The notes under the pieces were generated by a model. That model had not been told where the DNA came from. It was given only the letters and a program-made list of their open reading frames with translations, and did no database searches. Of a stretch of DNA of 35,997 nucleotides, positions 3,389 through 35,195 are shown piece after piece. Location of the stretch: assembly GCA_002840355.1 (NCBI GenBank), contig PHAL01000025.1, forward strand, positions 1-35,997, written 5' to 3'. Numbering within the stretch: position 1 is the first letter of the stretch; each line of letters begins with the position of its first letter. The position numbers and the translations under genes were made by a program. This DNA comes from Elusimicrobia bacterium HGW-Elusimicrobia-3. GTDB taxonomy: Bacteria > Elusimicrobiota > Elusimicrobia > Elusimicrobiales > UBA9959.

Positions 3389-3593
3389 GTACCGGGCCTG
3401 GTCCCTCGCTCCTGGAAGAGGGAACCGTTGCGCGGTTCCCCCCCGAAGCGGGGCCGTCACGCATAAGCCGCATAGCGGCTTTGCGCGACCCCGGCTCGGC
3501 GGTTCCGCTGCGCAAGGAACCGCCTCCGCCCTTGCGGACCGGCGTAAGCCGGTCCTCACCTTCCCCAAAGTCGCTCGGAACCAGGCCCGGTAC
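3389..3593. repeat. Multi-hairpin element with 14-bp terminal inverted repeats
   Basis: The ends GTACCGGGCCTGGT (3389-3402) and ACCAGGCCCGGTAC (3580-3593) are perfect inverted repeats. Between them lie at least four more hairpins: GGGAACCGTTGCGCGGTTCCC-type, AAGCCGCATAGCGGCTT, GGCGGTTCC...GGAACCGCC and GGACCGGCGTAAGCCGGTCC. There is no convincing gene inside. The layout (long outer stem, several inner hairpins, next to a gene end) resembles the shorter elements at 8563-8695 and 35057-35190, but the sequence is different apart from short GTAAGC/GTGAGG-like pieces. It could be a non-autonomous palindromic element or a structured RNA. Confidence 0.7.
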
Positions 3594-3754
3594 AGCCCTA
3601 CACCCTAAACACTTTGCAATTAAACCCGACACACCCTTGTGTTTGTGTCCGTAGCGGCGCAGGATAGCGTAGTCCACCCGGGTTCACCCTTTTCATTATT
3701 TTGCCACCAACAACCCGACAGGCCCTTGTCGGGTTCGCCTGCTATGCTATCGGT
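3594..3754. other. Intergenic stretch with hairpins before small ORF
   Basis: There is no gene here. A perfect 9-bp stem, AACCCGACA/TGTCGGGTT (3712-3735), lies directly before the small ORF. GATAGCGTAG (3663-3672) can pair with CTATGCTATC (3742-3751) around it, with one mismatch that is a G-U pair in RNA. TATGCT at 3743-3748 could be a -10 box placing the transcript start at or near the ATG at 3755. None of these is strong alone. Confidence 0.35.
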
Positions 3755-8365: not shown

Positions 8366-8381
8366 CCTTGACATGTCAAGG
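8366..8381. promoter_or_regulatory. Perfect 16-bp palindrome, candidate operator
   Basis: CCTTGACATGTCAAGG is a perfect palindrome ending 9 bases before a strong -35 box. The -35 region itself repeats the half-site (CCTTGACA at 8389-8396), so three half-sites lie in a row. This looks like a repressor or activator site for the RNA promoter that follows. Confidence 0.6.
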
Positions 8382-8390
8382 CATTACCCC

Positions 8391-8418
8391 TTGACAAGTA
8401 AGAATAATCTGCTATACT
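8391..8418 (+). promoter_or_regulatory. Strong sigma-70-type promoter for a candidate small RNA
   Basis: TTGACA (8391-8396) and TATACT (8413-8418) lie 16 bases apart. This is the best consensus promoter in the window, yet no coding gene follows on the plus strand. Predicted transcript start is about 8425. Confidence 0.75.
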
Positions 8419-8424
8419 ATTTCT

Positions 8425-8508
8425 GGAGCGGAACACCTTATCGACGGTCGCCTTCCGCTCCTTAACTTTGAGGGAGACAGCGCGGGCAAGTGCCCGCGGT
8501 GTCTTTTT
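8425..8508 (+). ncRNA. Candidate small structured RNA (about 84 nt)
   Basis: A strong promoter and an intrinsic terminator enclose about 84 nt with no start codon and no reading frame of use. The 5' end forms GGAGCGGAA (8425-8433) paired with TTCCGCTCC (8453-8461) around a 19-base loop that contains CGACGGTCG. A single-stranded purine-rich link (AACTTTGAGGGAG) follows, then the terminator hairpin. It lacks the conserved loop of the signal recognition particle RNA and is too short for 6S or tmRNA. Exposed GAGGGAG could pair with anti-Shine-Dalgarno-type sites or bind CsrA, which is inference. I do not recognise a family. Confidence 0.6.
8476..8508 (+). terminator. Rho-independent terminator of the candidate small RNA
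   Basis: GACAGCGCGGGCA (8476-8488) pairs with TGCCCGCGGTGTC (8491-8503) with one internal G-G mismatch, and TTTTT follows directly. Confidence 0.9.
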
Positions 8509-8562
8509 ATATAGCCAAAGCAGTCTTCCGCGAACCTTCCAACCCACCTATACATTGAGCCA

Positions 8563-8695
8563 GAGTGACCGAGGGGGATGGGTTAGCAAAACCCTCACGG
8601 AGGGAGGAGCTTGCGTAAGCGCGACGACTGAGTGAGGAGGGGCGCGTACGGTGTACGCGACCCCGTGTTTTGCGTTCCAGCCCCCTCGGGCGCTC
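8563..8695 (+). repeat. Structured 133-bp repeat, copy A
   Basis: The outer arms GAGTGACCGAGGGGG (from 8563) and CCCCCTCGGGCGCTC (to 8695) are inverted repeats. Inside are three hairpins: GGGTT/AACCC, CCTCAC/GTGAGG enclosing GCTTGCGTAAGC, and GGGG...GTAC-GGT-GTAC...CCCC. The core 8575-8667 is 84/93 identical, without gaps, to the reverse complement of 35086-35178. Several differences preserve pairing. The overall fold resembles a four-way cloverleaf. It lies between the small RNA terminator and the 3' end of rlmB, which is transcribed towards it. No protein is encoded. Confidence 0.85.
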
Positions 8696-8707
8696 CACGG
8701 GAACTAA

Positions 8708-9436
8708 TTACAGTCTTTTGGAAAGTTCGTAGAAGACTACGGCGGCGGCGTTGCTGGCGTTGAGGCTCTCCACCCCGCCCTTCTGCGGGATAGAGACTAT
8801 CACGTCGCAATGCTCGCGCGTCTTCTGGTGCAGGCCCTCGCCCTCGGAGCCTATGATGATGAAAGCCGGCAGCGTAAAATCCACCTTCGGCAGCGCCTGG
8901 CCGTTCATGGCCAGGCCGTAGATCCAGAAACCCTTTTCCTTGAGCTTTATGATCGTCTGGTTGAGGTTCACCACCTCCACCACGTTCACGCGCTCCACGG
9001 CCCCCGAGGCCGTCTTCTGCGCCGCCGCGTTCAGGCTGGCCGAGCGGCGCGCGGGCAGCACCACGGTGGACACGCCCAGACAGGCCGCGGACCGCACTAT
9101 GGCCCCCAGATTCATCGGGTCGGTGATGCCGTCCAGCGCGGCCCAAACCGTCTTCTTCAGGTCGCGCTCGGCCTCCAGCGCCTGGTCCAGTGAAAATTTA
9201 CGGGCAGGCTCGGCCTCGATGATAACGCCCTGGTGGTTGCCGCCGTTCGCCAGCTTCTCCAGCACGCGCGGGTCGCAGAATTCCACGGGCACGCCCTTGC
9301 CGCGGGCGAGGCCGGAGACGGTCTTCACCCGCGGTCCGGTCTCGCCGCGCGAAATGAGCAGGCGCAGCACCCGGCGCCGTCCGGCGTTGAGCACTTCCTC
9401 GGCGGTGTTTATTCCGAACAGCAGTTCAGTGGCCAT
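8708..9436 (-). CDS. rlmB: 23S rRNA 2'-O-ribose methyltransferase (RlmB, TrmH/SpoU family)
   Basis: RlmB methylates the 2'-O of a guanosine in the 23S rRNA peptidyl-transferase region, using S-adenosylmethionine. The 242-residue protein has the N-terminal substrate-binding domain (LLFGINTAEEVLNAGRRRV; GGNHQGVIIEAEP). The SPOUT knot follows with all three motifs: DGITDPMNLGAIVRSAA, IIIGSEGEGL and IPQKGGVESLNASNAAAV. Length equals that of E. coli RlmB. The ATG at 9434-9436 starts the conserved part; the open frame extends upstream only into the neighbouring gene. No clear ribosome site precedes it, and it lies 13 bases after the stop of the upstream membrane-protein gene, suggesting one operon. 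Confidence 0.93.
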   Translation of the reverse strand: MATELLFGINTAEEVLNAGRRRVLRLLISRGETGPRVKTVSGLARGKGVPVEFCDPRVLEKLANGGNHQGVIIEAEPARKFSLDQALEAERDLKKTVWAALDGITDPMNLGAIVRSAACLGVSTVVLPARRSASLNAAAQKTASGAVERVNVVEVVNLNQTIIKLKEKGFWIYGLAMNGQALPKVDFTLPAFIIIGSEGEGLHQKTREHCDVIVSIPQKGGVESLNASNAAAVVFYELSKRL

Positions 9437-35042: not shown

Positions 35043-35056
35043 AATTTTCCCTTAAT

Positions 35057-35190
35057 GGCCCGCCCGACGGGACGGGCCCGTCAGGCACGGGGTCTCGCAC
35101 ACCGTGCTCGCCCCTCCTCACTCAGTCGTCGCGCTTACGCAAGCTCCTCCTTCCGTGAGGGCCTTCCGAACCCATCCCGTCGGGCGGCCC
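35057..35190 (-). repeat. Structured 134-bp repeat, copy B
   Basis: This is the inverted copy of the element at 8563-8695. The outer arms GGCCCGCCCGACGGGA (from 35057) and TCCCGTCGGGCGGCCC (to 35190) pair with one mismatch and have a sequence unlike the arms of copy A. The core 35086-35178 is 84/93 identical to copy A in reverse complement. Read on the minus strand, it has the same three inner hairpins. The GGGTT/AACCC stem of copy A becomes GGGTT/GGCCC (G-U pairs), and the GTAC/GTAC stem becomes GCAC/GTGC. It lies between tdh and the flavin reductase gene, in the direction of their transcription. Confidence 0.85.
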
Positions 35191-35195
35191 TGGTG

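Follow-up and report, generated by a model that had tools for sequence, protein, structure and literature searches.

The window analyzed here, a stretch of 35,997 nucleotides from Elusimicrobia bacterium HGW-Elusimicrobia-3 (contig PHAL01000025.1, assembly GCA_002840355.1), harbors two copies of an interspersed repeat that belongs to a large and apparently undescribed family. Each element has a core of around 93 nt that forms a three-way junction, enclosed by two arms of around 22 nt that are complementary within the copy; the constraint on this fold is specific to one strand, and the elements are placed between genes. They also occur as head-to-head pairs, some of their sites are empty in relatives, and both the core and its orientation have turned over at sites that are shared between sister genomes. 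The reading that we favor, to which we give about an even chance of being right, is that the elements are non-autonomous mobile DNA, REP/REPIN-like in their working but of a larger and different build. Since each copy keeps its strict single-stranded fold though the outer arms almost never repeat, the family resembles miniature mobile DNA of a new type.

Structure of the element

The whole unit is around 137 nt in length and is composed of a ~22-nt arm, the ~93-nt core, and a second ~22-nt arm. Copy 1 is located on the forward strand at positions 8560-8698 (positions 1-137 of covariance model R1, 125.7-125.8 bits), with a locus-specific 5' arm at 8560-8582 that pairs with the 3' arm at 8676-8698 and a core of subtype TCACGG at 8583-8675. 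Copy 2 is found on the reverse strand at 35054-35192 (R1, 120.8 bits), with its 5' arm at 35171-35192 and its 3' arm at 35054-35076. The extent of the arms follows from the copies of the source genome, over which arm information stops at around -22/+21 from the core. In comparison with dinucleotide shuffles, the folds of the two copies are stable at z -5.7 and -7.6, respectively, a value reached by 0 of 200 shuffles in each case.

From many copies, the core is predicted to consist of a closing stem and two hairpins, P2 and P3. The closing stem extends inward to AAAA/TTTT or AGGC/GCCT. Hairpin P2, at 8593-8637 in copy 1 (from predicted folds and covariation) and at 35116-35160 in copy 2, contains tandem G-A internal loops and a tip of the form GCTTGCGTA(A)GCGC, with GCTTGCGTAAGC in copy 1. 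Hairpin P3, at 8639-8664 in copy 1 (from folds, alignment, and covariation) and at 35089-35114 in copy 2, where it reads GCAC-GGT-GTGC, has a bulged A and the conserved ACGGTGT, a loop region that, one base aside, does not vary among 28 aligned copies. Simple motifs in the stems of P2 and P3 separate five subtypes of the element. A first-pass annotation of the window had aligned 8575-8667 with the reverse complement of 35086-35178, and this comparison holds exactly (93 bases, 90% identity, 9 differences, no gaps), as do the change from GTAC-GGT-GTAC to GCAC-GGT-GTGC between the two copies and the outer arms that are unlike in sequence yet complementary within each copy. The fold that it drew from them, a closed stem with three hairpins, has had to be revised to the closing stem with two hairpins that many copies support; the proposed GGGTT/AACCC hairpin finds no support, and it is with the 3' side that the AAAA/GGCC stretch covaries, 12 of the 28 aligned sequences having G-C in place of A-U, changed on both sides, at columns 31/112 and 32/111.

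Covariation is strong, whereas its absence with more copies would have counted against the proposal of the same annotation. When 28 copies were aligned with MAFFT, 83.9% of the cells at modeled pairs could pair; shuffles gave 69.1%, and slid partners 36-46%. Changes on both sides were found at 33 of the 48 pairs, and none of 500 shuffles reached the covariation score. A tree-aware test, our own implementation in the manner of R-scape with near-identical and gappy rows removed (64 of 66 copies kept for the source genome and 96 of 99 for the named loci), gave significant covariation at E<=0.05 for 16/48 and 25/48 pairs, respectively; this test favors the structure because both its alignments were fitted to the model, as Infernal-fitted alignments (A3-A5) lean toward the modeled structure, and the copy sets are not independent, as contigs of genome G014 are present in both A3 and A5. 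All but one of the remaining significant column pairs are no more than 2 columns from a modeled pair.

Some copies carry a mini-hairpin insert (e.g., GGTGGAGCGAAGCGACACC) within P2 or P3 (loci L315, L314, L016, L030, and L036-L039). At L023/L315 the insert is present in G014 and absent from the copy in the source genome; the same is true of L004/L314, where the insert is a different hairpin.

Distribution and copy number

In the source genome (2.88 Mb in 95 contigs, 97% complete), there are 49 blastn matches to copy 1, and the covariance model R1, for which 28 of these were used, finds 66 matches; we are thus dealing with a repeat family and not with a pair, whereas only two copies genome-wide would have counted against the first-pass proposal. 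Within the genus, R1 matches are found in all 32 genomes, with between 9 and at least ~100 copies each (E<=1e-3, among the matches listed); counts near 100 are lower bounds because at most 103 candidates were scored per genome. At the level of the family, again among the matches listed, 45 of 59 genomes have R1 matches; the carriers come from 5 of 13 genera, namely g1 (32/32), g5 (4/4), g7 (3/3), g9 (4/4), and g62 (2/2, with one match per genome), and 0/14 genomes of the other eight genera have a match. From an even draw of 149 genomes across the phylum, 11 of that family match, together with two marginal matches outside it (E 3e-5 and 7.5e-5), among the matches listed.

An exact-pattern scan of named genomes returned at least 116 stretches. 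Among the 80 loci that were read, 79 are in records labeled Elusimicrobia, Elusimicrobiales, Elusimicrobiota, or "bacterium" bins, and one of these bins, SKS1.bin104, corresponds to G017 of the same genus. The exception, L090 (LBTN01000004.1), is a contig labeled Magasanikbacteria in which the G+C content goes from 32% to 61% with the element at the end, indicating either a chimeric contig or transfer. The core has no match in the plasmid and phage collections, and a source in either was rejected on this basis. Rfam gave no match to the element at gathering score, nor any at E<=1 for 8380-8710, and literature searches, from whose scope subscription papers and preprints were excluded, turned up no earlier account of the element in Elusimicrobia or of interspersed repeats with a three-way junction. 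These searches agree with the earlier remark that no known family matches.

Placement between genes

Of the 56 loci of the source genome, 46 have a called gene on each side and overlap neither, 4 overlap a crude ORF call, and 6 have no neighbor call. The 46 classified loci are distributed over 32 co-directional, 12 convergent, and 2 divergent gene pairs; for comparison, neighboring gene pairs in the window are co-directional in 23 cases, convergent in 3, and divergent in 3. Where two elements are separated by a gap of less than 200 nt, they are arranged head-to-head in 31 cases out of 31, with gaps of 0-137 nt. This count is made up of 10/10 pairs in the source genome, 8/8 in G014, and 13/13 at named loci outside the G014 contigs (three G014-contig loci were excluded from the named set), with some sites common to the source genome and G014. 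In those head-to-head pairs of the source genome that were read, the two members are of different subtypes.

Arms

The arms are of fixed length and hypervariable. Even where two cores are at least 95% identical, their arms are only ~56% identical, as against the 46-47% expected from column composition, with inner arm positions inherited and outer ones near background. Within one copy, by contrast, 12-14 of 14 positions usually pair. Copies with incomplete arms were excluded from the arm analyses, leaving 60 of the 66 copies of the source genome for the mismatch and inner/outer counts. Beyond the arms, information content in these copies does not exceed 0.15 bit at any position, and from this background level outside -22/+21 it follows that the element is not bordered by a tag, a promoter box, or a target motif. 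The ideas that the arms were palindromes already present in the target, or arose by inverted duplication of target sequence, were rejected: the empty site at L006, described below, has neither arm, and empty sites at a second, trmH-like locus are as a rule without a long palindrome.

One strand is constrained

The mismatches that do occur in the arms are strongly asymmetric. In a Watson-Crick-only alignment, G-T outnumbers A-C by 95:9 and G-A outnumbers C-T by 52:4 in the source genome, and the corresponding ratios are 81:9 and 31:1 in G014; model-based counts agree, with 146 G-T to 20 A-C over 215 partly overlapping copies. A process acting on the duplex has no reason to prefer G-T over A-C, and hence the constraint is on one single strand, which is the same throughout. 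The excess is equal whatever the direction of the host gene (40:2 in antisense copies, 12:1 in sense copies), and host mRNA therefore cannot be its cause. Of the 29 single copies that lie between co-directional genes, 21 have the folded strand antisense to those genes (p 0.024, with a crude gene caller), and the 60 nt upstream of the copies in the source genome contain no promoter-like conservation. With host mRNA discounted, the antisense placement and the lack of promoter-like upstream conservation favor DNA over RNA, short of proof, and it is probably as single-stranded DNA that one strand of the element is under selection. The G-U pairs that the first-pass annotation took as specific to RNA can be read equally as G-T pairs in folded single-stranded DNA.

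The same observations bear on whether the element is instead a structured RNA that serves the host, either a small RNA or a 3' UTR element, that is transcribed in the element sense. The covariation, the tolerance of G-U and G-A in one strand, and the GUAA-type tip in P2 would all suit such an RNA, but the antisense placement (21/29, and 15/16 at the trmH-like site described below), the lack of conserved upstream sequence and of an Rfam match, and a strand bias that is unchanged in gene-antisense copies make it improbable.

Gain, loss, and turnover between genomes

The clearest case of gain is at L006, where an element is found between two genes in the source genome and in G015. The closest relative, G014, has an empty site at which the stop codon abuts the next start (TAA|ATG, TGATATG), as do most of the other genomes read. 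The inserted stretch comprises both arms, the core, and 17 further bases, and no target-site duplication is visible at this single clean comparison of an empty and a filled site. The empty site in the nearest relative shows a clean insertion. Together with the covariation, the strand-specific mismatches, and the spread in copy number, the empty and filled sites bear out the earlier suggestion that either the structure is under selection or the unit is a mobile palindrome.

A different history is suggested by a site that lies next to a SpoU-methylase (trmH-like) gene and is occupied by an element in 16 of 30 genomes, with the nearest element antisense in 15 of these 16. Here, arms and core are common to four species, with compensatory differences and comparable divergence; core swapping among the four is unsupported, since arms and cores diverge alike. 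The site looks like one of long vertical maintenance, judging from these sequences, and this stands against the mobile-DNA reading in that maintenance is not required of a purely selfish unit. At the same site in G012, arms of ~19-22 bp surround a different hairpin stack that has no R1 match (L258, 1324-1500).

A broader comparison is provided by the source genome and G014, from which 40 of ~45 regions, drawn from the best-listed matches, were taken in addition to L257. Among the 41 G014 loci read, an element-bearing counterpart exists for 33 of the 56 loci of the source genome. At the 22 shared sites that have one element each, the orientation is the same in 13 and inverted in 9, and 20 of the 22 cores of the source genome are nearer to another copy in that genome than to their positional counterpart. 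The arms are recognizably conserved at 9 of the 22 sites (p<0.05 each, uncorrected). At L013/L295, 43 of 44 arm bases are alike and 75 of 93 core bases (p 0.007); at L034/L298 and L039/L304, the arms are kept while the core is different and inverted; and at L241/L312 and L253/L318, the remnant of one old arm is found beside a new, inverted element.

The kept arms raise the possibility that the core is an exchangeable and flippable cassette that moves between resident arms, which would serve as locus-specific docking hairpins, and sweeps through the genome. Because the arms are inverted repeats, such a core could land in either orientation. We hold this idea tentatively, as somewhat unlikely; if it were true, folded single-stranded DNA would spread by replacing resident copies and not by opening new sites.

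The elements might alternatively be structural DNA sites that the host maintains, as with BIMEs, for the nucleoid, gyrase, or the replication fork, with cores homogenized by gene conversion and mobility playing a minor part. The 33 of 56 loci with a counterpart in G014 (among the 41 read), cores that look homogenized within genomes, the compensatory change in the trmH-like element of four species, and the concentration in co-directional (32/46) and convergent (12/46) gene gaps are all in keeping with this. However, most other genomes read, the closest relative included, have no element at the L006 site, copy number ranges from 9 to at least ~100 among the matches listed, and shared sites differ in arms and orientation as well, a pattern not easily produced by conversion between copies with unrelated arms. 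We regard this alternative as unlikely.

Inversions at shared sites and the old-arm remnants beside inverted elements (L241/L312 and L253/L318) are also what would be left by template switching during replication, or quasipalindrome correction, which would make neutral palindromes complementary and flip the core likewise. Such a strand-symmetric process predicts equal numbers of G-T and A-C mismatches, though, against the observed 95:9 and 81:9, and it creates no new copies in empty sites, making it very unlikely as an account of the family.

Draft metagenome assembly could be the cause of part of the turnover. All the genomes are drafts, mostly metagenome bins, and misassembly of such data can make short repeats seem swapped or flipped; several copies in the source genome are located at contig ends. 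Short-read assembly around near-identical cores may on these grounds have produced some of the flips and core swaps, but contigs broken at several copies are what is expected when an assembler declines to resolve a repeat, and elements that occupy a site in inverted orientation often differ in their arms and have their own outer sequence; that artefact accounts for part of the pattern is accordingly rated as rather unlikely.

Search for mobilizing machinery

A search covering Y1_Tnp, RVT_1, and recurrent neighbor proteins identified no mobilizing enzyme, which counts against the mobile-DNA reading. Y1_Tnp is present in 27 of the 32 genomes of the genus, and the five without it hold 30-60 copies of the element. 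It is not correlated with element copy number (rho -0.21, p 0.24), and no element lies within ~1.5 kb of a Y1 gene at any of the 21 Y1 loci examined (L173 and L204-L223; R1 E<=0.01). The Y1 transposase was rejected as a partner, being neither linked to the element nor correlated with its copy number. Among the proteins that recur beside copies in the source genome, in G014, and at the named loci, inspection by eye revealed no transposase, only common families, ABC-type proteins included.

RVT_1 occurs in 8 of the 32 genomes and shows no correlation with copy number; the source genome, G014, and G018, which is 100% complete and has ~100 copies, all lack it. A reverse transcriptase was rejected as the mobilizer because it is missing from most carriers. 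The first-pass annotation had entertained a unit spread as RNA, that is, through reverse transcription of element RNA. RNA-like pairing would accord with this, but with RVT_1 missing from the source genome, G014, and G018 and from 24 of the 32 genomes, and with the folded strand antisense in 21 of 29 copies and lacking promoter-like conservation upstream, the proposal is scarcely credible.

At L049 (457-1449), a 330-aa ORF lies between two head-to-head elements ~1 kb apart, beside a gene that by eye is triosephosphate-isomerase-like. Judged by eye from a motif, the ORF resembles an Mrr-type endonuclease. As machinery of the element it was rejected, and from inspection by eye it is taken as cargo or chance.

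Comparison with known systems

The closest parallels are with REPs (tagged with GTAG/CGTC), BIMEs, and REPINs, described in PMC3733652 and PMC3116915 as 20-40 bp palindromes that have an unpaired tag at one end and are RAYT-flanking. According to the same papers, these sequences share with the present element a palindromic nature, an intergenic location mainly between co-directional and convergent genes, a high copy number, an arrangement of unlike members as inverted head-to-head dimers (with spacers of 20-100 bp in the known systems), and a strand-specific folded form that has been proposed as mobile. The element differs from REPs in its length of ~137 nt as opposed to 20-40, in its three-way-junction core, and in its hypervariable arms of fixed length; it has no GTAG/CGTC tag and was not found beside a RAYT gene. 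Recognition of folded, single-stranded, bulged hairpins on one strand is a feature of TnpA_REP and the IS200-IS605 group (PMC8266576), one that the element would share with them. Unlike these systems, the element has no linked Y1 transposase, and five element-rich genomes are without a Y1_Tnp match.

ERIC / RU-1 units, which are 127 bp long (see PMC2759123), and further MITE-like repeats of bacteria are alike in size and are also high-copy intergenic palindromes. The element is set apart by the lack of a visible target duplication at the examined site, by its multi-branched covarying core, and by its occurrence in a different phylum. MITEs of DDE transposons have terminal inverted repeats that their copies share with one another and with a transposase gene; the arms of the present element are not common to copies. 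The mitochondria of Allomyces contain double-hairpin elements, which are mobile hairpins with compensatory stem changes. These differ from the present family in being organellar and shorter, and we know of no three-way junction among them.

Proposed mechanism and significance

Under the mobile-DNA reading, the active form would be a folded single DNA strand that is exposed at replication. It may be recognized by a putative trans-acting nuclease or transposase through the tandem G-A loops, the TT bulge, the bulged A, and the ACGGTGT loop. Integration of new copies would favor positions occupied by, or next to, existing ones, with the residents displaced; the head-to-head pairs of different subtypes, the inverted occupants, and the cores exchanged inside preserved arms would then be accounted for. 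We propose that the arms stay complementary because only foldable copies are mobilized or tolerated. A host function would not be needed, though some sites are old.

The family adds a large and well-populated structured interspersed repeat to an almost uncultured phylum. Two of its features are unpredicted by standard pictures of REPs and REPINs, namely near-identical cores with nearly unrelated, self-complementary arms, and the exchange and inversion of occupants at shared intergenic sites. The strand signature of G-T versus A-C mismatches is, furthermore, a simple sequence test for selection on a folded single strand that can be used on other palindromic repeats.

Neighboring features

Two further features of the window were observed. 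Near copy 1, at 8413-8508 on the forward strand, is an unannotated small-RNA-like gene, without an Rfam match, that has a TATACT box at 8413-8418 and, in relatives, TTGACA upstream. The near-invariant GGAGCGGAACACCTTATCGACGGTYGCYTTCCGCTCC is followed by a strong terminator hairpin and a T run ending at ~8508; five aligned sequences are nearly unchanged, and at most of the 30 trmH-like loci the gene can be seen downstream. At 3390-3595 on the reverse strand, the sequence reads as a related, palindrome-armed, multi-hairpin repeat of another class, with arms GTACCGGGCCTGGT / ACCAGGCCCGGTAC, inside which R1 has a weak match (3452-3540, 31.3 bits, E 2e-6). Pieces of this class (GTGAGGACCGGC...GCCGGTCCGCAAGG and CGCAAARCCGCTATGCGG) are nested within some copies of the element, at L257, L012, and L033.
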